Under the pieces are notes generated by a model. That model had not been told where the DNA came from. It searched no databases and saw nothing but the letters and a program-made list of their open reading frames with translations. Source: Paeniglutamicibacter psychrophenolicus (lineage in GTDB: Bacteria; Actinomycetota; Actinomycetes; Actinomycetales; Micrococcaceae). From it: a DNA stretch of 64,000 bases. The stretch spans positions 2,418,001-2,482,000 of the forward strand of contig NZ_JAGIOE010000001.1 in the NCBI RefSeq assembly GCF_017876575.1, written 5' to 3'. The position numbers were made by a program, and so were the translations under genes. This document shows positions 35,705 through 55,889 of this stretch, piece after piece. How positions within the stretch are numbered: the first letter of the stretch is position 1; each line of letters starts with the position of its first letter.

Positions 35705-35760
35705 ATTTCCTCCTCCGTTGCGAGGAATTGAACGGCAGGAAATGGATCCGGGAGCACGCC

Positions 35761-36300
35761 ATGATCGTTCCGCGCAACAGGGGAGCCGCAGAGGGCGGCC
35801 TTCCGCGCAGGATCGATGCCTCAACATTGCCACATTTCCGCGGCAGCCTCGGGCGTTTTGCCACGGGAGTCGCCATCGTGACCTTTGACGGGGCAACCCG
35901 CCGGCACGGGATCACCGTCAACTCCTTCACCTCCGTCTCCATGGACCCGCCGCTGGTGCTGGTGTCCATCGCCCGCAAGTCCAGGGCCCACGACGAACTG
36001 GCCAACACCCCTTTCACCGTGAACATCCTGGGTGCCGAGCAAAAGGAGCTGGCCCTGCACTTCGCCGGCCGCCCGAGCCACGATCCAGCCTGGATCGAGG
36101 GGGAGATTGCCCCGCGGCTGGCCGGGGTGCTCGCCTATTTCTCCTGCACCCCGTGGGCCGCCTACGACGGCGGGGACCACACCCTGTACCTGGGCGAGGT
36201 CCAGGACTTCAACTACCGGCGCGGCGACGCGCTGGCCTTCGCCAACTCCGCCTTCACCACCATCCCCGAAAGCCAGCTCGGCGTCGAGGAGTTGCTCTAG
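35761..36300 (+). CDS. hpaC: 4-hydroxyphenylacetate 3-monooxygenase, flavin reductase component
   Basis: Reduces FAD/FMN with NADH and hands the flavin to HpaB. The 179-residue protein has the flavin reductase-like fold: FRGSLGRFATGVAIVTFDGATRRHGITVNSFTSVSMDPPLVLVSIARKSRAHDEL, then FTVNILGAEQKELALHFAG. The ATG at 35761 is chosen because GGGAG lies seven bases upstream; the TTG 11 codons earlier lacks this. It faces the IclR gene divergently and is followed by hpaB after 81 bases. Sister families use the same fold with other oxygenases, but the neighbour HpaB decides. Confidence 0.87.
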   Translation: MIVPRNRGAAEGGLPRRIDASTLPHFRGSLGRFATGVAIVTFDGATRRHGITVNSFTSVSMDPPLVLVSIARKSRAHDELANTPFTVNILGAEQKELALHFAGRPSHDPAWIEGEIAPRLAGVLAYFSCTPWAAYDGGDHTLYLGEVQDFNYRRGDALAFANSAFTTIPESQLGVEELL

Positions 36301-36381
36301 GTCCTTGCCCGCCGCATGGCCGTCCCCTCACGCCACCGCCAGAACCGAAGAAAGCCCACCACGCACAAAGAGGTCTTCACC

Positions 36382-37833
36382 ATGGGAATCCGAACCGGCC
36401 AACAGTTCCTGGACAAGCTCGATGCGATGTCCCCGCACCTGGTGATCGACGGGGAGGTGGTTTCGAAGAACCTCACCCAGCACCCGGCATTCAAGAACCT
36501 GGCGCTGACCTACGCCAAGCTCTTTGACATGCAGCACGATCCGGCGTCCCAGGACGCCCTGACCTACACCTCGCCCAGCAGCGGGGACAAGGTCAACGCC
36601 TCCTTCCTCATCCCGCGCACCCAGGAGGACCTGGCCCGACGCCGGGCCGCGACCAACACCTGGGCGCAGTACTCCAACGGATTCCTGGGCCGCACCGCCG
36701 ACTACATGAACTCCGCGCTCACCGCCCTGGCCGGCGCCAAGACCTTCTTCGCGCAATCCGACCCGGTGTACGGCCAGCGCATCGAGGCGTACTACGAGTT
36801 CGCCCGCGAAAACGACCTGCTGGCCACCCACACGCTGATCCCGCCGCAGGTCAACCGCTCGGTCTCCGGCTCCGAGCAGCTTGGCGGGCAGCTCACCGCC
36901 CGCATCGTGGAGGAACGCAGCGACGGGATCATCATCAACGGGGCGCGGATGCTGGCCACCGTCGCCCCGATCGCCGACGAGCTGTTGGTCTTCCCCTCTA
37001 CGGTGCTGCGCGGCACCCCGGAGGACGCCCCGTACTCCTTCGCCGTCGCCATTCCCAACGACGCCCCGCGGCTGCGCTACCTCTGCCGCACGCCGCTGCA
37101 CAACGGCGGGAACACCCACGACGAACCGCTTGCAGCGCGCTTCGACGAGATCGACGCGGTCGTGGTGTTCGACGACGTGTTCGTGCCCAACGAGCGGATC
37201 TTCATGCTCGGGCACCCGGAGCTGTGCAACGCCTGGTACACCGACACCGGTGCCGGGGCGCTGATGACCCACCAGGTCGTCACCCGCACCGTGGCCAAGT
37301 CCGAGTTCTTCCTCGGGTTGGCCTCGGAGATCGGCGCGGCCATCGGCATCGACGGTTTCATGCACATCCAGGAGGCGCTTGCCGAGCTGATCCGCGACGT
37401 GGAGATCGGCAAGGCGCTGGTGGTGGCCGCCGAGGCGCAGGCGGCGATGAGCCCCGACGGGGTGCTGCTGCCGCACTGGGACACGTTGAATGCGGCGCGG
37501 AACTGGTACCCGAAGATCTCCCAGCGCTTTCCGGAGATCATTCGCATGATGTGTGCCTCGGGCCTGATGGCGCTGCCCGGCCAGGCGGATCTGGAGGTGG
37601 CGGGCGATGACATCGCCAAGTACCTGCAGGGCAAGTCGCTGACCGGACCCGAGCGCATCGCGCTGTTCAAGCTCGCCTACGACGCCTCGATCACCGGGTT
37701 CGCCGGGCGCCAGTCGCTCTACGAATACTTCTTCTTCGGCGACCCCGTCCGCATGGCCGGGGCCATGGTCAACGGCTACGACCGCGAGCCGGTGCGGGCA
37801 CGGGTGCGCGAGTTCCTGGCCCGCGACCGGTGA
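36382..37833 (+). CDS. hpaB: 4-hydroxyphenylacetate 3-monooxygenase, oxygenase component
   Basis: Flavin-dependent hydroxylase that converts 4-hydroxyphenylacetate to 3,4-dihydroxyphenylacetate. The 483-residue length matches the two-component HpaB family. Characteristic segments: RTGQQFLDKLD near the N-terminus, FLGRTADYMNSALTALAGAKTFF, a TLIPPQVNRS block, GARMLATVAPIADELLVFP and the later FDDVFVPNERIF that precedes the acyl-CoA-dehydrogenase-like C-terminal helices. The ATG at 36382 follows AGAGG by eight bases. It is preceded by its reductase hpaC and followed by a permease gene with a separate control region. Confidence 0.93.
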   Translation: MGIRTGQQFLDKLDAMSPHLVIDGEVVSKNLTQHPAFKNLALTYAKLFDMQHDPASQDALTYTSPSSGDKVNASFLIPRTQEDLARRRAATNTWAQYSNGFLGRTADYMNSALTALAGAKTFFAQSDPVYGQRIEAYYEFARENDLLATHTLIPPQVNRSVSGSEQLGGQLTARIVEERSDGIIINGARMLATVAPIADELLVFPSTVLRGTPEDAPYSFAVAIPNDAPRLRYLCRTPLHNGGNTHDEPLAARFDEIDAVVVFDDVFVPNERIFMLGHPELCNAWYTDTGAGALMTHQVVTRTVAKSEFFLGLASEIGAAIGIDGFMHIQEALAELIRDVEIGKALVVAAEAQAAMSPDGVLLPHWDTLNAARNWYPKISQRFPEIIRMMCASGLMALPGQADLEVAGDDIAKYLQGKSLTGPERIALFKLAYDASITGFAGRQSLYEYFFFGDPVRMAGAMVNGYDREPVRARVREFLARDR

Positions 37834-37960
37834 CCCGGGGCGGGGCCCGCCTCCGCAGCCGAGCTGTTGCGCCACGGCCGTCGTGCGTGGTGTCGGTCGC
37901 CGGAACGGTACAGATTCCGCGCCGAGGGGATGCACGGACGCACCCCGGGCAGCGGGGCGA

Positions 37961-37976
37961 CGTGAGTGAACTCACG
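37961..37976 (+). promoter_or_regulatory. palindrome upstream of MHS permease gene (distal)
   Basis: CGTGAGT-GA-ACTCACG is a perfect 7-bp inverted repeat with a two-base centre, lying about 94 bases before the permease start. It is an operator candidate for a dimeric repressor and accompanies a second, different palindrome 28 bases downstream. Confidence 0.5.
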
Positions 37977-38003
37977 ATCATGGGTTATCATGGTCACAGT
38001 CCA

Positions 38004-38025
38004 ATACCGTCCGAACGGTCGGTAT
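38004..38025 (+). promoter_or_regulatory. palindrome upstream of MHS permease gene (proximal, TetR-like)
   Basis: A 22-base dyad with nine of eleven positions symmetric: the arms are ATACCG-N-CCG and CGG-N-CGGTAT around a central AA. An inner ACCGT-N4-ACGGT is embedded. It lies about 44 bases before the ATG, where a repressor would block transcription. The form is typical of TetR-family operators, but no TetR gene is present nearby. Confidence 0.6.
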
Positions 38026-38069
38026 AGCCACACCCACACCGCGCGTAGCGCCCAACGCTGGAGATCCCC

Positions 38070-39440
38070 ATGGCCCGCACCTCCCTGGCTGCAAGCAAGA
38101 AACGTTCCGAGGAACGTCGCGTTCTTGCCGGCACGCTGGTCGGCACCACCATCGAGTGGTACGACTTCTTCATCTTTGCCCAGCTCACCGCCACCTTGCT
38201 GAGCCCGCTGTTCCTGGAACCGCTGAGCAAGTCGAACCCGGGCTTCGGCCAGATCCTGGCCTTCGCCATGATCGGCATCTCCTTCCTCTTCCGCCCGCTG
38301 GGCGCCATCGTGGCCGGCCACCTGGGGGACAAGTACGGGCGCAAGCGCATCCTGGTCGCCACCCTGATCATGATGGGCGCTGCAACCGCGCTGATCGGCC
38401 TGTTGCCGACCTACGCCTCCATCGGCCTGGCAGCCCCGCTGCTGCTGGTGCTGCTGCGCATCATCCAGGGATTCTCCGCCGGCGGCGAATGGGGAGGCGC
38501 GGCCCTGATGGCCGTCGAGCACGCCCCGAAGAACAAGCGCGGCTACTTCGGCGCCTACCCGCAGATCGGCGTCCCGATCGGCATGATCCTGGCCACCGGC
38601 ATGCTCTACATCCTGCGCACCTCGATGACCCCGGAGCAGTTCGCCGCCTGGGGCTGGCGCATCCCGTTCCTGCTCTCGGTGGTGCTGATCCTGGTCGGCT
38701 ACATGATCCGCAAGGCCGTCGAGGAATCCCCGGTCTTCAAGCAGCTGGCGCTGCGCAAGGCGTCCGAGCACACCCCGCTGAAGCAGCTGTTCCAGACCAA
38801 CACCAAGGAAGTCATCCAGGCCGCGCTGATCTTCATCTCCAACAACGCCGCCGGATACCTGGTCATCGCGTTCTTCATCTCCTACACCACCAAGGTCCTG
38901 GGCATGCCGGTCGCACCGGTGCTGCTGGCCACCACCATTGGTGCTGTCGGCTGGCTGATCTTCACACTGGTCGGCGGCTGGCTCTCGGACCACCTGGGAC
39001 GCCGGAACACCTTCGTGATCGGCTACGGCATCGTCTTTGTCTGGATGATCCCGATGTTCATGCTCATCGACACCGGATCCATCTTCCTCTACGGGCTCTC
39101 GGTCTTCGTGCTGACCACCGGGCTGGGGCTGTCCTACGGACCGCAGTCGGCGATGTACGCCGAGATGTTCCCGGCGCACATCCGCTACTCGGGCATCTCC
39201 ATCGGCTACGCCCTGGGTGCAATCCTTGGCGGTGCCTTCGCGGCGACCGTCGCCCAGATCCTGCTGGAGGAGACCGGCAAATCGATCTCCATCGCCATCT
39301 ACATCATGGTCCTGACGCTCATCTCGATCGCCGCGGTGCTTTGGGTCGGGGAGACCAAGGGCAACAACCTGCATGTCGAGGACGTGGACCCGGGGCTGCA
39401 GGCCGCCCACGACGAGGCGCAGCGCGACCAGCTCGCCTAG
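38070..39440 (+). CDS. MHS family MFS permease (putative aromatic acid uptake)
   Basis: A 456-residue metabolite:H+ symporter-type transporter with twelve helices. The MHS hallmark GTTIEWYDFFIFAQ lies at the first helix, the GHLGDKYGRKRILV motif after helix 2, and the GEWGGAALMAVEHAP segment after helix 4. This family takes up organic acids such as shikimate, alpha-ketoglutarate or aromatic acids. Its place after hpaC-hpaB makes 4-hydroxyphenylacetate a reasonable substrate (inference). A GGAGATC precedes the ATG. Followed by a large inverted-repeat terminator. Confidence 0.9.
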   Translation: MARTSLAASKKRSEERRVLAGTLVGTTIEWYDFFIFAQLTATLLSPLFLEPLSKSNPGFGQILAFAMIGISFLFRPLGAIVAGHLGDKYGRKRILVATLIMMGAATALIGLLPTYASIGLAAPLLLVLLRIIQGFSAGGEWGGAALMAVEHAPKNKRGYFGAYPQIGVPIGMILATGMLYILRTSMTPEQFAAWGWRIPFLLSVVLILVGYMIRKAVEESPVFKQLALRKASEHTPLKQLFQTNTKEVIQAALIFISNNAAGYLVIAFFISYTTKVLGMPVAPVLLATTIGAVGWLIFTLVGGWLSDHLGRRNTFVIGYGIVFVWMIPMFMLIDTGSIFLYGLSVFVLTTGLGLSYGPQSAMYAEMFPAHIRYSGISIGYALGAILGGAFAATVAQILLEETGKSISIAIYIMVLTLISIAAVLWVGETKGNNLHVEDVDPGLQAAHDEAQRDQLA

Positions 39441-49673: not shown

Positions 49674-50234
49674 ATGGCCAAGCTGATCTACGCGTACCTC
49701 GCCTCGCTGGACGGGTACGTCGCCGACGCGTCGGGGGACTTCGGCTGGGCGTACCCGGGCGAGGAGGTCATGGACTTCATCAACGCCGCCGAGCGCGACG
49801 TGGGCACCTACCTGTACGGGCGCACCATGTACGAAATGATGTCCGGCTGGGAAACCGACCCCGGGTATGCCGCCGGGTCGCCCGGGGACGCAGAGTTCGC
49901 CCGCCTCTGGCAGGCCGCCGACAAGGTCGTGTTCTCACGCATCCTTCAGGCGGCGAGCACGAGGCGCACGCGGATCGAGCGCACCTTCGATGCCGGGATG
50001 GTGCGGGCACTGAAGGAAACCGCGGCAAAGGACCTCAGCGTTTCCGGCGCCGAGCTGGCGGCCGAGGCGTGGCGCGCGGGGCTCATCGACGAGTGCCAGG
50101 TCTTCGTGTCCCCGATGCTCGTCGGGGGAGGCAAGCGGATGTTCCCCGACGGGATCCGCCAACCGCTCGAGCTGCTCGAGGAGCGCCGCTTCGACAACGG
50201 CATGGTCTTCATGCGCCACCGCGTGCTGCACTAA
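49674..50234 (+). CDS. dihydrofolate reductase-like (RibD C-terminal) family protein
   Basis: A 186-residue cytoplasmic oxidoreductase-fold protein. MAKLIYAYLASLDGYVADASGDFGWAYPGEEV at the start, LYGRTMYEMMSGW, and SVSGAELAAEAWRAGLIDECQVFVSPMLVGGGKRMFP near the end are typical of the RibD-C/DHFR-related family (YwjB-like). It probably binds NADPH, but the substrate is unknown. AAAGGGA is six bases before the ATG. It converges on hpaD across 185 bases that hold several perfect hairpins. Confidence 0.87.
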   Translation: MAKLIYAYLASLDGYVADASGDFGWAYPGEEVMDFINAAERDVGTYLYGRTMYEMMSGWETDPGYAAGSPGDAEFARLWQAADKVVFSRILQAASTRRTRIERTFDAGMVRALKETAAKDLSVSGAELAAEAWRAGLIDECQVFVSPMLVGGGKRMFPDGIRQPLELLEERRFDNGMVFMRHRVLH

Positions 50235-50248
50235 CCGCCCCGGCGGCG

Positions 50249-50356
50249 GGATGCGGAAACGTTGCCGCATCCGCAAACACCGCCGGCTCCCGGCACGCAG
50301 AAGGAGCCGGGCACGCCGAAGGGGCCGGCGCGCACGCACCATCGCCACGATGGTGC
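50249..50356. repeat. cluster of three perfect hairpins plus tandem repeat
   Basis: GGATGCGG/CCGCATCC (50249-50256 with 50265-50272), CCGGCTCC/GGAGCCGG (50283-50290 with 50303-50310) and GCACCATCG/CGATGGTGC (50336-50344 with 50348-50356, three-base loop). The middle part also holds two near-identical 18-19 base units (GGCACGC-N-GAAGGNGCCGG). These fill the 185 bases between two convergent genes. Some may be terminators, though no long T-run is present. Confidence 0.6.
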
Positions 50357-50419
50357 CATGCACGCCGACCCCCCGTCGAACGCGAAGGTCCGGTGGTGCT
50401 GCGGGTTGCCGGGGGCCGG

Positions 50420-51529
50420 CTAGAGCTGGTGGCCCATCTTGAAGCCGACTTCCTCGCCCGGGTCCCCGGTCAGCGCGTTGCCCGGTGCGCGGGTGTAGGA
50501 GAAGCCGTCGGCCCCCACGGTCACCGCCATCTCGGAGGAATCGGTGCGCTTGACGACCTCGCGCGGGTTGCCGTCCAGGTCAAGGACCAGGGAGGCCTCG
50601 GTGTACCAGGACGGGACCACGGGGTTGCCCCACCAGTCGCGGCGCTGGTTGTCGTGCACGTCCCAGGTGATCACCGGGTTGTCCGGGTCCCCGGTGTAGT
50701 AGTCCTGGGTGTAGATCTCGATGCGGTGGTCATCGGGGTCCAGGATGTAGAGGTAGAACGCGTTGGAGACGCCGTGGCGTCCGGGGCCGCGCTCGATGCG
50801 GTCGGACATGCGCAGGGCGCCCATCTTGTCGCAGATCTGGATGATGTTGTGCTTCTCGTGGGTGGAGAAGGCCACGTGGTGCAGGCGCGGGCCGTCGCCG
50901 CCGGTCAGCGCGGTGTCGTGCACGGTGCCCTTGCGGTGCATCCAAGCGGCGTAGGTGGTGCCTTCCTCGTCCTGGATGTCCTCGGTGACGCGGAAGCCCA
51001 GGTCCTCCAGGTAGGCCCGGCCGCGCGGCACATCCGGGGTGACCTGGTTGAAGTGGTCCAGGCGGACCAGCTCGCCGGCGTTGTAGATGTCGTAGCGCTG
51101 GTGCAGGCGCTCGACGTGGGTGGTCTCGAAGAAGAACTCGTAGGGGAAGCCCAGCGGGTCCTCCACGCGGACCGCATCGCCGATGCCGCGCACGAAGCCC
51201 TCGGTGCGGCGTTCGGTGCGGCAGCCCAGTTCCTTGTAGTAGGCCTCGGCGGCGTCGACGTCCGCGTTGGAGCGCACGCGGAAGGCCATGGCCTTCAGCG
51301 CCGCGACCGGGCCGAGGGTCAACACCAGGTTGTGGTGGATGAACTCCTCGAAGGAGCGCAGGTAGATCTGCGTGTCGTCCTCGTAGGACACGTGCAGGCC
51401 CAGCATGTCGACGTAGAACTTGCGCGAGGCGGCCAGGTCGGTGACGACGAGCTCGGCGTAGGCGCAGCGCAGGATGTCCGGGGCCGGAACCGAGGGGGTG
51501 GGAACGGGGTTGGTGGGTGTCTTGGTCAT
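50420..51529 (-). CDS. hpaD: 3,4-dihydroxyphenylacetate 2,3-dioxygenase
   Basis: Cleaves the ring of homoprotocatechuate between C2 and C3. The 369-residue protein has the metal ligands His159, His218 and Glu271, each exactly four residues beyond the His155, His214 and Glu267 of the well-studied Brevibacterium enzyme, and His204 matches the catalytic His200. The sequence also resembles the manganese-dependent Arthrobacter globiformis enzyme. Whether Mn or Fe is used cannot be seen from ligands. Last gene of the meta-cleavage operon; AAGGAG lies about 12 bases upstream. Confidence 0.95.
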   Translation of the reverse strand: MTKTPTNPVPTPSVPAPDILRCAYAELVVTDLAASRKFYVDMLGLHVSYEDDTQIYLRSFEEFIHHNLVLTLGPVAALKAMAFRVRSNADVDAAEAYYKELGCRTERRTEGFVRGIGDAVRVEDPLGFPYEFFFETTHVERLHQRYDIYNAGELVRLDHFNQVTPDVPRGRAYLEDLGFRVTEDIQDEEGTTYAAWMHRKGTVHDTALTGGDGPRLHHVAFSTHEKHNIIQICDKMGALRMSDRIERGPGRHGVSNAFYLYILDPDDHRIEIYTQDYYTGDPDNPVITWDVHDNQRRDWWGNPVVPSWYTEASLVLDLDGNPREVVKRTDSSEMAVTVGADGFSYTRAPGNALTGDPGEEVGFKMGHQL

Positions 51530-51577
51530 GACGGGGTTCGCTCCTTCGCGAATAAAGCTGGAAAGTTGGGGGAGTGG

Positions 51578-53083
51578 CTAGGCGCCGAACTTGGGGGTGT
51601 GGACCTCTCCGAGGGTGATGTGCACGGCCTGCTGGTCGGTGTAGAAGTCGATGGAGCGGTAGCCGCCCTCGTGTCCCAGTCCCGAGGCCTTCACGCCGCC
51701 GAACGGGCTGCGCAAATCGCGCACGTTGTGGCTGTTGAGCCAGACCATGCCTGCCTCGACGTCCTGGGCGAAGTTGTGCGCGCGCTTGAGGTCGTTGGTC
51801 CACACGTAGGCGGCCAGCCCGTACTTGGTGTTGTTGGCCAGCGCCAGGGCCTCCTCGTCGGTGTCGAACGGGGTGATCGCCACGACGGGGCCGAAGATCT
51901 CCTCCTGGAAGATGCGGGCGTCCGGGGCGACGTCGACGAACACGGTCGGGGCGACGTAGGAACCGTTCTCCTGGCCTTCGGGCAGGTTCTCCGGGCGTCC
52001 GCCGCCGGCCACGACGCGGGCCTCGGTCTTGCCGATTTCCACGTAGCCCATGACCTTGGCGTAGTGCTCGGGGTGCACCAGCGCGCCGACCTGGGTCTCG
52101 GGATCGTGCGGGTCCCCGACCTTGATGTTCTTCGCGCGCGCGGCGTAGGCCTCGATGAACTTCTCGTAGATGGGGCGCTCGACCAGGATGCGCGAGCCTG
52201 CGGTGCAGCGCTCGCCGTTGAGCGAGAACACGCCAAAGAGGGTGGAATCGATGGCGGCGTCGAAATCGGCATCGGCGAACACGATGGCCGGGGACTTGCC
52301 GCCCAGCTCCATGGACATGCCCTTGAGGTTTTCGGCGCAGTTGCGGAAGATCAGCTGGCCGGTGGAGGACTCGCCGGTGAAGGAGATCAGCGGAACCTTC
52401 GGGTGCTTGACCAGCGCGTCGCCGGCCTCCTCGCCGATGCCGTTGACCAGGTTGAAGACGCCGACCGGCAGGCCCGCATCCTCGAAGATGGTGGCCCACA
52501 GCGAGGCCGAGAGCGGGGTGAACTCGGCCGGCTTCAGCACCACGGTGCAGCCCGAGGCGATGGCCGGGGCGAGCTTCCAGGATTCGAGCATGAACGGGGT
52601 GTTCCACGGGGTGATCAGCCCGGCCACACCGATCGGCTTGCGGTTGACGTAGTTCAGCTGGGAACCGGGGACCTTCAGCGCGGTGTCGTGCTGGGCGACG
52701 ATCAAATCGGCGAAGAAGCGGAAGTTCTCCGCGGCGCGCTGGGCCTGGCCGCGGGCCTGGGTGATCGGCAGGCCGGTGTCGAAGGTTTCCATCTCCGCGA
52801 GGCGGTCTTCGGCGGCGACGACGGCGTCGGCGATCTTGTACAGCACCTTGGCGCGGGCGCGGGCACTCATGGTCGGCCACGGGCCGTTCTTGAAGGCCTC
52901 GGTGGCGGCCGCGACCGCGGCGTCGATGTCGGCCTTCTGGCCCGCGGCGGCGGTGGCGTAGGTCGTGTTGGTCACCGGGTCCAGCACCTCGAAGGTCTCC
53001 CCGTTGATGGAGTCGACGAACTTGCCGTCGATGTAGTGCTGGATTCTCGTCGGAAGGTTCTCGGGAACGAAGTGCTTGCTCAT
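51578..53083 (-). CDS. hpaE: 5-carboxymethyl-2-hydroxymuconate semialdehyde dehydrogenase
   Basis: NAD-dependent aldehyde dehydrogenase that oxidises the product of HpaD. The 501-residue protein has the catalytic Cys293 (NGERCTAGSR) and Glu259 (MELGGKSPAIVF), the oxyanion Asn near residue 161 (ITPWNTPF), and the nucleotide-binding FTGESSTGQ. The order GntR-hpaE-hpaD and the 48-base gap support the substrate; by sequence alone it could be another ALDH. AAGGAG lies eight bases before the ATG. Confidence 0.92.
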   Translation of the reverse strand: MSKHFVPENLPTRIQHYIDGKFVDSINGETFEVLDPVTNTTYATAAAGQKADIDAAVAAATEAFKNGPWPTMSARARAKVLYKIADAVVAAEDRLAEMETFDTGLPITQARGQAQRAAENFRFFADLIVAQHDTALKVPGSQLNYVNRKPIGVAGLITPWNTPFMLESWKLAPAIASGCTVVLKPAEFTPLSASLWATIFEDAGLPVGVFNLVNGIGEEAGDALVKHPKVPLISFTGESSTGQLIFRNCAENLKGMSMELGGKSPAIVFADADFDAAIDSTLFGVFSLNGERCTAGSRILVERPIYEKFIEAYAARAKNIKVGDPHDPETQVGALVHPEHYAKVMGYVEIGKTEARVVAGGGRPENLPEGQENGSYVAPTVFVDVAPDARIFQEEIFGPVVAITPFDTDEEALALANNTKYGLAAYVWTNDLKRAHNFAQDVEAGMVWLNSHNVRDLRSPFGGVKASGLGHEGGYRSIDFYTDQQAVHITLGEVHTPKFGA

Positions 53084-53136
53084 TTACTGGCTCCTTGTGG
53101 GGGATTGCGGGGGAAAGCGGTGTGCTGCGAAAAGGG

Positions 53137-53796
53137 CTAGAGCGGGGAGGCCGGGAGGTTGGCCGCCGCCAGGTAGGCGTTCAGGGTGGTGGTGCGGTGG
53201 GCACGGGCCGCCTGTTCGATTTGCGCGGCCGGGGCCCGGGTCTCGATCAAATCCAGCAGCCGGGCGTGCTCGGCCACCGATTCCCGGGCGCGGCCGGGGA
53301 TGTGGGTGAAGGAGGAGGTGCGCATCACGGCCAGGCGGTTCCAACCGCGGTGCACCAGCTCTAGGATGTGCGGGTTGGGGCAATTGCGGTAGAGCACCTG
53401 GTGGAACTCGTTGTTCAGTTCGGTGAAGCGCACCGCGTCGAAGTCGACCAACAGGTCGGCCATGGCCTGGTTGATGGCCCGGGCCGCGGCCAGCTGGCCG
53501 GCGTCGATGAACGGGGCGCTCAGCGCGGTGGCCGCGCCCTCGATGATCGCCAGGGTCTGCATGGTGTGCAGGTAGAGCGTGGTGTCCGCGGCGGCCACCA
53601 TGGCCCCGACGTTTCGTTCGAAGGTCACCAGGCCCTCGGCCTCCAGCCGGCGGATGGCCTCGCGGACCGGGACCACCGAGCAGCCAAGCTCGGCGGCGAT
53701 GGTGCCCAGCACCAGCCGGTAGCCGGGGGTGAAGGTTCCCTCGGTGATCTTCTCGTGCAGCAGCCGGTAGGCCGACTCTGACTTGCTCGGTGCCAT
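53137..53796 (-). CDS. GntR family regulator with FCD domain (operon regulator)
   Basis: A 219-residue FadR-subfamily regulator: N-terminal winged helix (SAYRLLHEKITEGTFTPGYRLVLGTIAAELGCSVVPVREAIRRLEAEGLV) and an FCD ligand domain with metal-type residues (FTELNNEFHQVLYRNCPNPHILELV). It is encoded inside the meta-cleavage operon, eight bases after the fusion gene, so it is probably autoregulated. A matching palindrome, ATCGTATACGAT, lies just upstream of the first gene of the operon. Confidence 0.92.
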   Translation of the reverse strand: MAPSKSESAYRLLHEKITEGTFTPGYRLVLGTIAAELGCSVVPVREAIRRLEAEGLVTFERNVGAMVAAADTTLYLHTMQTLAIIEGAATALSAPFIDAGQLAAARAINQAMADLLVDFDAVRFTELNNEFHQVLYRNCPNPHILELVHRGWNRLAVMRTSSFTHIPGRARESVAEHARLLDLIETRAPAAQIEQAARAHRTTTLNAYLAAANLPASPL

Positions 53797-53803
53797 GGCG
53801 GGC

Positions 53804-55309
53804 CTAGATTTCCGGTTCGCCGTCGGCGACCCACTGGTTGTACTTGGCCTTCCAGCCGGTGTTCATCGGGAACAGGCCCTCGATCTTGCTGCCCTTGGAC
53901 ACGTTCAGGAAGACGAAGGTGTCCTGGCGCTCGGATTCGACGACCTCCTCGGCGATCTCGGCGGCCAGGTGCGGCGGGATGACCAGGATGCCGTCGGCGT
54001 CGGCGATGACGATGTCCCCGGGCACGATGGTGGTCCCCCCGCAGCCCACGGCCACGTCGGTGTCCCACGGCACGTGCTTGCGCCCCAGCACCGCCGGGTG
54101 CGCGCCGTTGTGGAAGGTCGGGATGTCTAGGGCCGATACGGCGTCCAGGTCGCGGACCCCGCCGTCGGTGATGATGGCCTCGGCGCCGCGGACCTGGGTG
54201 CGCATCGCCAGGATGTCGCCGAGGGTGCCGGAGCCCTTCTCGCCGCGGGCCTCCATGACCAGGATCTCGCCCGGGCCGATGTCGTCGATGACGCGCTTCT
54301 GCGCGTTGTAGCCGCCGCCGTGGGACTTGAACAGGTCCTCGCGGCCCGGCACGTAGCGCAGCGTGCGGGCGGTGCCGATGACCTTGGTCATGCCCTTGGT
54401 GGCCTGCAGCCCGTCGACCGAGACGTTGTTCAGTCCGCGCTTGCGCAACGCGCCGGAGATGGTTGCGGTGGCCACGGAGAGCAGCTTTTCCTTGACCTCG
54501 TCGGTCAGTGCCTGCTTGCCGGTGATCGGCAGCTCGATGCCCGCGCCGGCGGCGGTGCCGAAGGCGTCGATCCGATCCGCGTCGGTGATCTTGGGCTGGT
54601 TGCCGAAGGCGGCGAAGTCCGCCGTGCCCTCCACGACGGTGGTGGACAGGCGCCCGGTGCCCAGGCCGGCGGCCTCATCGTCGACCTGCACCTCGACCGT
54701 ATCGCCCGGGACGATCACCGAGGAACCTGCCGGGGTGCCGGTGAGGATCACGTCGCCGGCCTTCAGCGTCATCTGCTGCGAGAGGTCCGCGACGATCTGC
54801 GCGAAGGAGAAGATGAGTTCTTCGGTGGTGGCGTCCTGGGCGAGCTGGCCGTTGACCCAGGTGCGGATGCGCAGGGCTTCCGGGTTCACGGCCGCCGCGG
54901 GAAGCAGCACCGGGCCCATCGGGGTGTAGCCATCTCCCGACTTGGAGCGGATGTTCGAACCCTTGTCGGCGTACTTCATGTCGTACACGCCCAGGTCGTT
55001 GGAGGCGGTCACGTACCCGACGTGGCTCCAGGCGTTCTCGACACTGACGCGGCGGGCGTCGTCGCCGATGACCAGGGCGATCTCGCCCTCGAAGGCGAGC
55101 AGTTCGGTGCCGGCCGGGCGCTCGACGGTGGAACCGGAGGCTGCCAGCGAGGAGGAGGCCTTCATGAAGTAGGAGGGGAATGCCGGGGTGCGGCCGCGTT
55201 GGGCGGCGCGGGAGGAGTAGGAGAGGTGCACTGCAAGAACCTTGCCGGCCTTGTCGAAGATGGACTGGTCGACCTGGACCGGTTCGGTGGCTGTGGCGTC
55301 GCTGCTCAC
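53804..55309 (-). CDS. FAH-family isomerase/decarboxylase fused to RraA-like domain
   Basis: A 501-residue fusion. N-terminal half (about 20-235): fumarylacetoacetate hydrolase family, as in HpaG, with metal ligands Glu74 and Glu76 (FEGEIALVIG), Asp105 and the GTPAG segment near 191-195. C-terminal half (about 270-480): RraA-like fold with GDILAMRTQ, GGVRD (383-387) and GDIVIADADGILVIP. In the hpa pathway the FAH domain would act on the decarboxylated/isomerised ring-fission product. E. coli HpaG is two FAH halves; here the second is replaced. RraA-fold enzymes include aldolases and oxaloacetate decarboxylases, so the second half may replace HpaI or the decarboxylase (inference). GTG at 55309 follows AGGAGG. 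Confidence 0.85.
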   Translation of the reverse strand: MSSDATATEPVQVDQSIFDKAGKVLAVHLSYSSRAAQRGRTPAFPSYFMKASSSLAASGSTVERPAGTELLAFEGEIALVIGDDARRVSVENAWSHVGYVTASNDLGVYDMKYADKGSNIRSKSGDGYTPMGPVLLPAAAVNPEALRIRTWVNGQLAQDATTEELIFSFAQIVADLSQQMTLKAGDVILTGTPAGSSVIVPGDTVEVQVDDEAAGLGTGRLSTTVVEGTADFAAFGNQPKITDADRIDAFGTAAGAGIELPITGKQALTDEVKEKLLSVATATISGALRKRGLNNVSVDGLQATKGMTKVIGTARTLRYVPGREDLFKSHGGGYNAQKRVIDDIGPGEILVMEARGEKGSGTLGDILAMRTQVRGAEAIITDGGVRDLDAVSALDIPTFHNGAHPAVLGRKHVPWDTDVAVGCGGTTIVPGDIVIADADGILVIPPHLAAEIAEEVVESERQDTFVFLNVSKGSKIEGLFPMNTGWKAKYNQWVADGEPEI

Positions 55310-55332
55310 GGTTTCCTCCTGTTGTGTATGAA

Positions 55333-55344
55333 ATCGTATACGAT
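55333..55344 (-). promoter_or_regulatory. GntR (FCD-type) operator palindrome
   Basis: A perfect 12-bp palindrome ATCGTATACGAT, 24 bases upstream of the GTG of the fusion gene. FadR-type regulators typically bind such GTATAC-centred sites, and the GntR gene lies in the same operon. The site sits in a position to block transcription of the operon. Confidence 0.65.
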
Positions 55345-55889
55345 CTAGTGTGATCTCGATCTCCCGGCCTGTCAAGGGTTGGCCCGCCGCAAGGGTGTCG
55401 GTGCTGGCATGAAATGCCCAAGATCCCCGGATCCATGCGGGAAATCGGTGGCCCGCCCGAGCCGGAAAAGATTTTCCGACAATCCCGCGAAATCGGCGTC
55501 ACGATCCCGGGCACCCCGGCTCTTAATGTTTGAAACCAGCAAGGTGAACGCCTTTGCTGCTTCGAGAAGGGGTGCACGGAGCGCTACGGCGGGTTCTTGG
55601 GGAACCTGCCGCGGCCCGCGGGCACCGGTCAAGCGATGTCGGCTAGCGAATCGGCCGCTGCGTGTCTCGTCTCCTTTGGGGGAGGCGGGGCACGCCATCG
55701 TGACGACGCGCGACGTGGTGTGGCCGCGACACGGATTTCACGGCGGGGCCCGGATTCCTTGGGGAGGGTCCGGGATCCGCCGATGCCGTACCCGAGGGGC
55801 GGCCCAGGGGCCGCGCGCCGAAACGTCGGTGCGCCATGGAAGTGTATGCGGCAACCATCGTCCCCGTTGCACATCAGGAGCCAACCGAC
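55345..55889. other. intergenic region upstream of the meta-cleavage operon
   Basis: Together with the short leader of the operon this is a gap of 580 bases without a convincing gene. It contains a perfect dyad CGGAAAA-GA-TTTTCCG at 55463-55478 with GAAATCGG repeated on either side (about 55441 and 55489), which may be a second regulatory site. The rest is featureless apart from a candidate ribosome binding site for the next gene. Confidence 0.55.

Follow-up and report, generated by a model that had tools for sequence, protein, structure and literature searches.

What does a protein that joins an FAH domain to an RraA-like domain do in a homoprotocatechuate (HPC) operon? We followed up such a gene in Paeniglutamicibacter psychrophenolicus, where it lies in a 64,000-nucleotide stretch of the genome (referred to here as the window). 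Its genomic association over many genera suggests, with a probability of roughly 0.75, that the fusion is a middle-step enzyme of the HPC meta pathway, one that does the work of HpaG and perhaps stands in for HpaF as well. The fusion would convert the product of HpaE, 5-carboxymethyl-2-hydroxymuconate (CHM), to 2-oxohept-3-ene-1,7-dioate (OHED) and CO2. The OHED would then be passed on to the downstream module of the organism, either HpaH plus HpaI or one DapA-type aldolase. The gene and its parts are located as follows.

53804..55309, minus strand: FAH-RraA fusion (501 aa, PRK12764 family), the proposed HPC-pathway isomerase/decarboxylase that turns CHM into OHED
54635..55210, minus strand: FAH domain, 'SR' subfamily, residues 34-225; E74, E76, D105 and K123 are kept, and R34 and Q37 stand where HpaG C-half N-Y-A-D-H-A-S-E has His and Glu
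53981..54469, minus strand: RraA-like domain, residues 281-443, with D365-X20-R386-D387 (Pfam; fold match 5x15)
54215..54217, minus strand: Asp365 codon, first residue of the D-X20-R-D spacing
54149..54154, minus strand: Arg386-Asp387 codons (GGVRD), aligned with Arg123-Asp124 of the HMG/CHA aldolase 3NOJ

The gene is a single open frame on the minus strand (55309..53804), with a GTG at 55309 and a stop at 53804. Pfam placed FAA_hydrolase at residues 34-225 (E 3.5e-51) and RraA-like at residues 281-443, with all 152 model positions covered (E 6.2e-31). These profiles bear out the original prediction of one frame with a complete FAH and a complete RraA-like domain. The metal ligands that it had named, Glu74, Glu76 and Asp105, were correctly positioned: they align with the HpaG C half as the Glu-x-Glu...Asp ligands of FAH proteins and, like K123, are identical in 79 of 79 fusions (the window and 78 relatives, among the best 80 of 469 loci). 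The motifs GGVRD and GDIVIADADG are both present in the RraA half, as predicted. Absence of the catalytic Arg-Asp pair had been named beforehand as a possible refutation; the pair is there. D365, R386 and D387 align with D102, R123 and D124 of 3NOJ and are identical in the same 79 of 79 fusions (best 80 of 469 loci). Their spacing is that of the D-X20-R-D metal and enolate site.

The architecture is already catalogued by NCBI as PRK12764 ('fumarylacetoacetate hydrolase family protein'), and the model description names no reaction. The NCBIfam equivalog, NF009399, scored 793.5 bits over fusion residues 5-494 against a cut-off of 444. The same whole-length model was over cut-off in 39 of 59 genomes (P. 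psychrophenolicus included), so the fusion is not an assembly artefact. The RraA half alone exceeded the cut-off of 208 of PRK08245/NF006093 (228.9 bits, residues 267-495). Scores against the following models were below cut-off: 136, 109.2 and 136.7 bits for the HpaG models TIGR02303, TIGR02305 and NF011750 (cut-offs 276.4, 228.65 and 811), 81.7 and 73 bits for the HMG/CHA aldolase/oxaloacetate decarboxylase models NF006731 and TIGR02798 (179 and 304.5), and 47.9 and 29.8 bits for the RraA RNase E inhibitor models NF006875 and TIGR02998 (136 and 241.25). HpaG proteins have two FAH-fold domains per chain or pair; the fusion has one FAH and one RraA-like domain. Six FAH domains were found in the P. 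psychrophenolicus genome, the fusion's own among them, and not one passed an HpaG cut-off.

Compared with the halves of E. coli HpaG, the FAH half scored 128 bits to the C half and 60.7 bits to the N half. It reads S-Y-S-S-R-A-A-Q where the HpaG C half has N-Y-A-D-H-A-S-E. With positions placed through this HpaG alignment, not residue by residue against FAHD1, the FAHD1-type His-Glu dyad was not found: the His position is R34, an invariant Arg, in 79 of 79 fusions, and at the Glu position 73 have Q and 6 have E (best 80 of 469 loci). Orthology of the FAH half to the HpaG C half was considered and rejected, as FastTree placed it in an 'SR' group apart from E. coli HpaG and the canonical FAH genes of L079-L081 (see below). 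Local support was 0.81 for the 22-row 'SR' group, 1.00 for 18 of its rows, 0.99 for six fusion-type rows (one being the unfused gene of L097) and 0.97 for E. coli HpaG with L079-L081. The tree had 34 rows representing 33 genes (L066 and L085 are one gene); the FAH gene of L078 was dropped because of 100 masked bases, and the N half of E. coli HpaG was a 140-residue fragment. An AlphaFold2 model of the fusion, built from 35 aligned fusions, had a mean pLDDT of 85.5 and a pTM of 0.55, and the packing of its domains is not reliable. By fold, the first half matched HpcE and FAHD1 structures and the second half Streptomyces RraAS2.

Unfused 'SR'-type FAH genes were also seen. Those of L085, L087, L094, L095 and L096 lie near aldehyde dehydrogenases, and L085 and L087, the two that were scanned, also have P450, glutamine-synthetase-like and glyoxalase-type or LigB dioxygenase genes; in these other actinobacteria they perhaps mark a catabolic cluster for aromatics or amines that is as yet uncharacterised. 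In the genome of L083 and L082 (G392), the fusion has hpaE and a DapA-type gene beside it, and a different contig carries an unfused 'SR'-type FAH gene; the hpaD about 4 kb away from this unfused gene shares 43% identity with that of the window.

On the minus strand, the operon runs fusion, GntR/FCD regulator, hpaE, hpaD. The remaining pathway genes of the window are these.

53137..53796, minus strand: GntR/FCD regulator, second gene of the operon (GntR 3.1e-15, FCD 1.5e-19)
51578..53083, minus strand: hpaE (TIGR02299, 672.5 bits, cut-off 638.35; 45% identical to E. coli HpaE)
50420..51529, minus strand: hpaD, 3,4-dihydroxyphenylacetate 2,3-dioxygenase (TIGR02295, 448.5 bits, cut-off 321.4)
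36316..37833, plus strand: hpaB-type 4-hydroxyphenylacetate 3-monooxygenase oxygenase, upper pathway, 12.6 kb from hpaD (TIGR02309, 550 bits, cut-off 480.2)
35728..36300, plus strand: flavin reductase beside hpaB, likely in the HpaC role (below every curated cut-off scored)

The flavin reductase, hpaB and an MFS metabolite/H+ symporter stand in a row at 35728-39440 (+), 11-15 kb from hpaD, as genes of the upper 4-hydroxyphenylacetate pathway. A search for sigma-70-like promoters in window positions 50000-55800 returned none and was uninformative.

The operon had been described as lacking hpaF, hpaH and hpaI, and the discovery of these genes elsewhere in the genome, combined with a lack of activity of the half on pathway intermediates, had been named beforehand as evidence against the prediction. 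The description holds for the local operon. Genome-wide it fails for hpaH and hpaI, which are adjacent at L050 7255-8963 (-), near C1:4.496 Mb and about 2 Mb from the window; hpaF was not found.

L050 8055-8963, minus strand: hpaH (TIGR02312, 362 bits, cut-off 351.5; 52% identical to E. coli BL21 HpaH)
L050 7255-8127, minus strand: HpaI-like aldolase gene (best family TIGR02311, 329.4 bits, below the cut-off of 368.8; 55% identical to E. coli BL21 HpaI over 234 aa)

The TIGR02311 (HpaI) cut-off was reached in none of the 59 genomes. In many other genera the hpaH-hpaI pair lies inside the fusion cluster, unlike the arrangement in P. psychrophenolicus.

Absence of hpaF here means absence of matches in profile searches for a short protein. 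There were none at E 1 in the P. psychrophenolicus genome, and 4 of 14 control genomes matched, below cut-off. Neither the 59 genomes nor three further genomes gave a match, and no control matched in either search. In a phylum sample of 396 genomes, 8 matched, 7 of them over cut-off; all belong to one genus and none is over the cut-off for the fusion. The search is therefore able to detect the family. By tblastn at E 1, E. coli HpaF matched only its own locus among 178 sequences (2.18 Mb of loci, not whole genomes). Between match ends, the gap from hpaD to hpaH had a median of 17 nt over the 48 loci with a positive gap and was largest, at 376 nt, in L163 (best 80 of 469 loci), which leaves no room for a 381-nt hpaF in nearly all 48.

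We scanned public genomes with aligned RraA halves as the query and took the best 80 of 469 confirmed loci. RraA was fused to FAH in one frame in 79 of these 80; in L176 the FAH matched the canonical query only. The commonest order, in 46 of the 79 fusion loci, was fusion-GntR-hpaE-hpaD-hpaH-hpaI, and E. coli BL21 has hpaG-E-D-F-H-I. Modules were counted in flanks of up to 8 kb around the fusion, again among the best 80 of 469. Both hpaH and hpaI were nearby in 53 of 79 fusion loci, a DapA-type gene with neither of them in 14, and the two modules together in none. Two loci had hpaH only, and 10 had none of these genes, 5 of them cut by contig ends. An aldolase gene, hpaI (53) or DapA-type (14), thus lay within the fetched flanks of 67 of the 79. 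These orders and counts indicate that the fusion occupies the hpaG position, that hpaF is gone and that the last-step enzymes are interchangeable around the fusion.

The best family of all 14 DapA-type genes (best 80 of 469 loci) was TIGR02313 'HpaI-NOT-DapA' (2,4-dihydroxyhept-2-ene-1,7-dioic acid aldolase). None reached its cut-off of 396.7 (333-352.7 bits; a contig-end fragment, 97), and 13 of the 14 passed the ordinary dapA cut-off of 206.15, a result that counts against our reading. DHDPS-family enzymes of the NahE hydratase-aldolase type both hydrate and cleave unsaturated 2-oxo acids, and such enzymes would explain how one DapA-type gene replaces two genes. In the 80th locus, from Curtobacterium pusillum (L097), each half has a gene of its own; the genes run RraA-DapA-FAH and are followed by an SSADH-like gene. 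This locus has a second, canonical FAH gene beside hpaD that could be its HpaG, and the hpaD of L097 shares only about 40% identity with that of the window.

Several loci stood out individually. L160 (record titled Actinomycetaceae bacterium) has full flanks with fusion-hpaE-hpaD and no hpaH, hpaI or DapA-type match nearby; the same is seen in L148, L158, L169, L170 and the window. Given these missing matches, the last steps must be encoded elsewhere in such genomes. The fusion loci L141 (record titled Sporosarcina beigongshangi; its HpaE is 81% identical to that of the window) and L176 (record titled Stenotrophomonas maltophilia P13; genome 2.7 Mb) point to contamination, mislabelling or transfer.

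Across genomes, the fusion and HpaD were over cut-off in the same 39 of 59 (P. psychrophenolicus included). In the phylum samples of 396, where at most 3 (fusion search) or 5 (HpaD search) candidates were scored per genome, all 8 genomes with the fusion over cut-off were among the 13 with HpaD over cut-off. HpaH-like proteins above 300 bits were found in 37 of the 39 fusion genomes. The other two were G018, with a DapA-type aldolase in the cluster instead, and G035, whose contig stops less than 1 kb beyond hpaD. HpaI-like proteins at E 1e-80 or better were found in 35 of the 39, none over the curated cut-off; in G022 and G027 a weaker HpaI-like match adjoins hpaH. The Paenarthrobacter loci L128, L132 and L137 carry the fusion. 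This co-occurrence with HpaD, together with the hpaG position, supports the part of the original prediction in which the RraA half replaces a second FAH half (HpaF being a further candidate).

The other five HpaD genomes of the phylum sample show one of two arrangements. L077 has an unfused RraA gene and a DapA-type gene. L078-L081, from other classes of the phylum, have one canonical FAH and a DapA-type gene with hpaE, hpaB and hpaD in all four and a GntR match in three; no RraA, hpaH, hpaI or HpaF match was seen in these stretches. A single FAH may therefore be enough, with the RraA half perhaps dispensable for the core reactions. In G164, RraA lies beside DapA-type and hpaD genes in a locus with no FAH match.

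Taken together, the tie of the fusion to hpaD and hpaE, the completeness of both domains and the invariance of the metal and motif residues are direct observations that count for an HpaG-like role. Against it stand the single-FAH clusters L078-L081, the placement of the FAH half outside the HpaG orthologues, the RraA locus of G164 and the second canonical FAH of L097. Our best reading is that the RraA half stands in place of one HpaG FAH half, or of HpaF. Since the FAH metal ligands and the RraA D-X20-R-D are kept, both halves are expected to bind a metal-chelated 2-oxo acid.

How the two reactions would be divided is less certain. We tentatively favor, at somewhat less than even odds, a division in which the FAH half decarboxylates and the RraA half carries out the enol-keto isomerisation. 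The FAH half, with metal ligands and K123 kept and the His-Glu pair lost, would be the decarboxylase; the RraA half, through its D-X20-R-D metal/enolate site, would perform the isomerisation done by the second FAH half of HpaG. A study of FAHD1 (PMC8398924) proposes that a lysine network participates in decarboxylation and that the His-Glu dyad positions water, either for hydrolysis or to ketonise the enol product. We infer that K123 corresponds to the lysine tied to decarboxylation. For the HMG/CHA aldolase, R123K lowered kcat 181-fold and pyruvate proton exchange about 20-fold (PMC5065237). The likelihoods that we attach to this division and to the next two readings concern ways of dividing one overall reaction, and they overlap with that of the whole-protein role.

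It is rather doubtful, by comparison, that the same overall reaction proceeds with the halves reversed, the RraA half acting as the decarboxylase, much as RraA-fold enzymes decarboxylate oxaloacetate, and the FAH half as the HHDD isomerase. This reading draws on the NF006731 and TIGR02798 scores of the RraA half, though far below cut-off, on its intact D-X20-R-D and on the loss, from the FAH half of the fusion, of the His-Glu pair that is present in the single-FAH clusters L079-L081. The greater closeness of the FAH half to the HpaG C half and the conservation of E74, E76, D105 and K123 in every fusion compared (79 of the best 80 of 469 loci) argue against it.

Less likely again is that the RraA half stands in for HpaF, the CHM isomerase, and that the FAH half alone catalyzes both HpaG reactions. 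That hpaF is the pathway gene not found, that F is missing from the E-D-H-I order of the commonest fusion clusters (best 80 of 469 loci) and that single-FAH clusters exist (L078-L081) would all fit. CHM isomerises without enzyme, however, if more slowly (PMC12718150). Moreover, the single-FAH clusters show no RraA or HpaF match in their stretches, which suggests that HpaF need not be replaced at all.

A role for the RraA half as the pathway aldolase, which the original prediction had offered as the route to a compact lower pathway, is very improbable. The alignment with the HMG/CHA aldolase 3NOJ, R123-D124 included, and the lack of hpaI in the local operon speak for it, but an hpaI adjoins hpaH in this genome, albeit below the HpaI cut-off, and hpaI or a DapA-type aldolase accompanies the fusion in 67 of 79 loci (best 80 of 469). 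The fusion stays while the aldolase changes among loci, and both unfused RraA genes in hpaD-bearing loci (L077 and L097) are directly followed by a DapA-type gene. Identity of the RraA half with HpaI was rejected on these grounds; identity with HpaH was rejected too, as hpaH belongs to a different family and both this genome and 55 of the 79 loci carry it (best 80 of 469). Least credible of all is a non-catalytic RraA half, whether a scaffold for oligomerisation or a passenger RNase E regulator as the resemblance to RraAS2 might suggest, given that D365, R386 and D387 are invariant (79 of 79, best 80 of 469 loci), that the scores stay under the RNase-regulator cut-offs and that the unfused form also occurs in catabolic loci.

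If the HpaG-like role is correct, it would account for the steps that lie between ring cleavage and the aldolase when Micrococcaceae-type bacteria break down tyrosine via homoprotocatechuate, and one half of a bifunctional enzyme would have been exchanged for an unrelated fold with the pathway unchanged. It provides a testable reaction for a widespread actinobacterial family named in databases only by its FAH domain, and for an RraA-like domain whose relatives often carry RNase-regulation names. The fusion is constant where hpaH plus hpaI is exchanged for a DapA-type aldolase, and this exchange offers a natural experiment by which steps can be assigned. We consider the chances about evenly balanced that the RraA fold here has a new catalytic use, as an isomerase or vinylogous decarboxylase on 2-hydroxymuconate-type intermediates. 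Joined to an FAH domain that lacks the His-Glu dyad, it would take over the proton transfer of the lost dyad, and the fusion would be a second, independently evolved HpaG of actinobacteria.

By titles and abstract starts, no paper naming PRK12764, or describing or assaying the fusion or either half, was found among the open-licence papers listed; the one listed paper that joins homoprotocatechuate and RraA concerns the HMG/CHA aldolase. 4-Hydroxyphenylacetate, homoprotocatechuate and tyrosine all support growth of Arthrobacter sp. Rue61a, for which a meta pathway has been proposed (PMC3534580). The A. arilaitensis genome paper lists AARI_13280, 13290 and 13310 among the homoprotocatechuate genes (PMC2991359). 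Our guess is that one of these three is the fusion.

Several known systems resemble the fusion in part. PRK12764 is the same whole-length two-domain protein, and its description is without the pathway role argued here; PRK08245 is a single-domain NCBIfam subfamily ('hypothetical protein') that carries no function and is silent on the fusion. The closest solved structure to the RraA half is RraAS2 of Streptomyces coelicolor (5X15), at 33% identity and a TM of 0.93 by target length. RraAS2 is reported as an RNase ES inhibitor (PMC5738090), whereas the RraA half of the window is fused to FAH in a catabolic operon. The HMG/CHA aldolase/oxaloacetate decarboxylase (3NOJ) shares the RraA fold and the three matching residues; unlike the fusion, it belongs to a different pathway, its family models score below cut-off here and a separate aldolase accompanies the fusion.

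The split HpaG of Acinetobacter baumannii TH, OPETD plus HHDDI, offers another parallel. According to PMC12718150, the two partners are jointly needed for the middle steps, namely for decarboxylation of the tri-acid, which CHMI speeds. The split form in Curtobacterium is analogous, but both Acinetobacter partners are FAH proteins, equivalent to the two halves of HpaG. A further counterpart is HpaG/HpcE itself, the bifunctional isomerase/decarboxylase of E. coli (1GTT/1I7O), which acts as OPET decarboxylase and HHDD isomerase and, like the fusion, has two domains in one chain and the same operon position. HpaG/HpcE is FAH plus FAH, whereas the fusion is FAH plus RraA-like, with an FAH half that is 38% identical in the fold match and falls in a different clade. 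The fusion is thus best read as a putative HpaG-type enzyme in which one FAH half has been swapped for an RraA-like domain, in a catalogued family without an assigned reaction.
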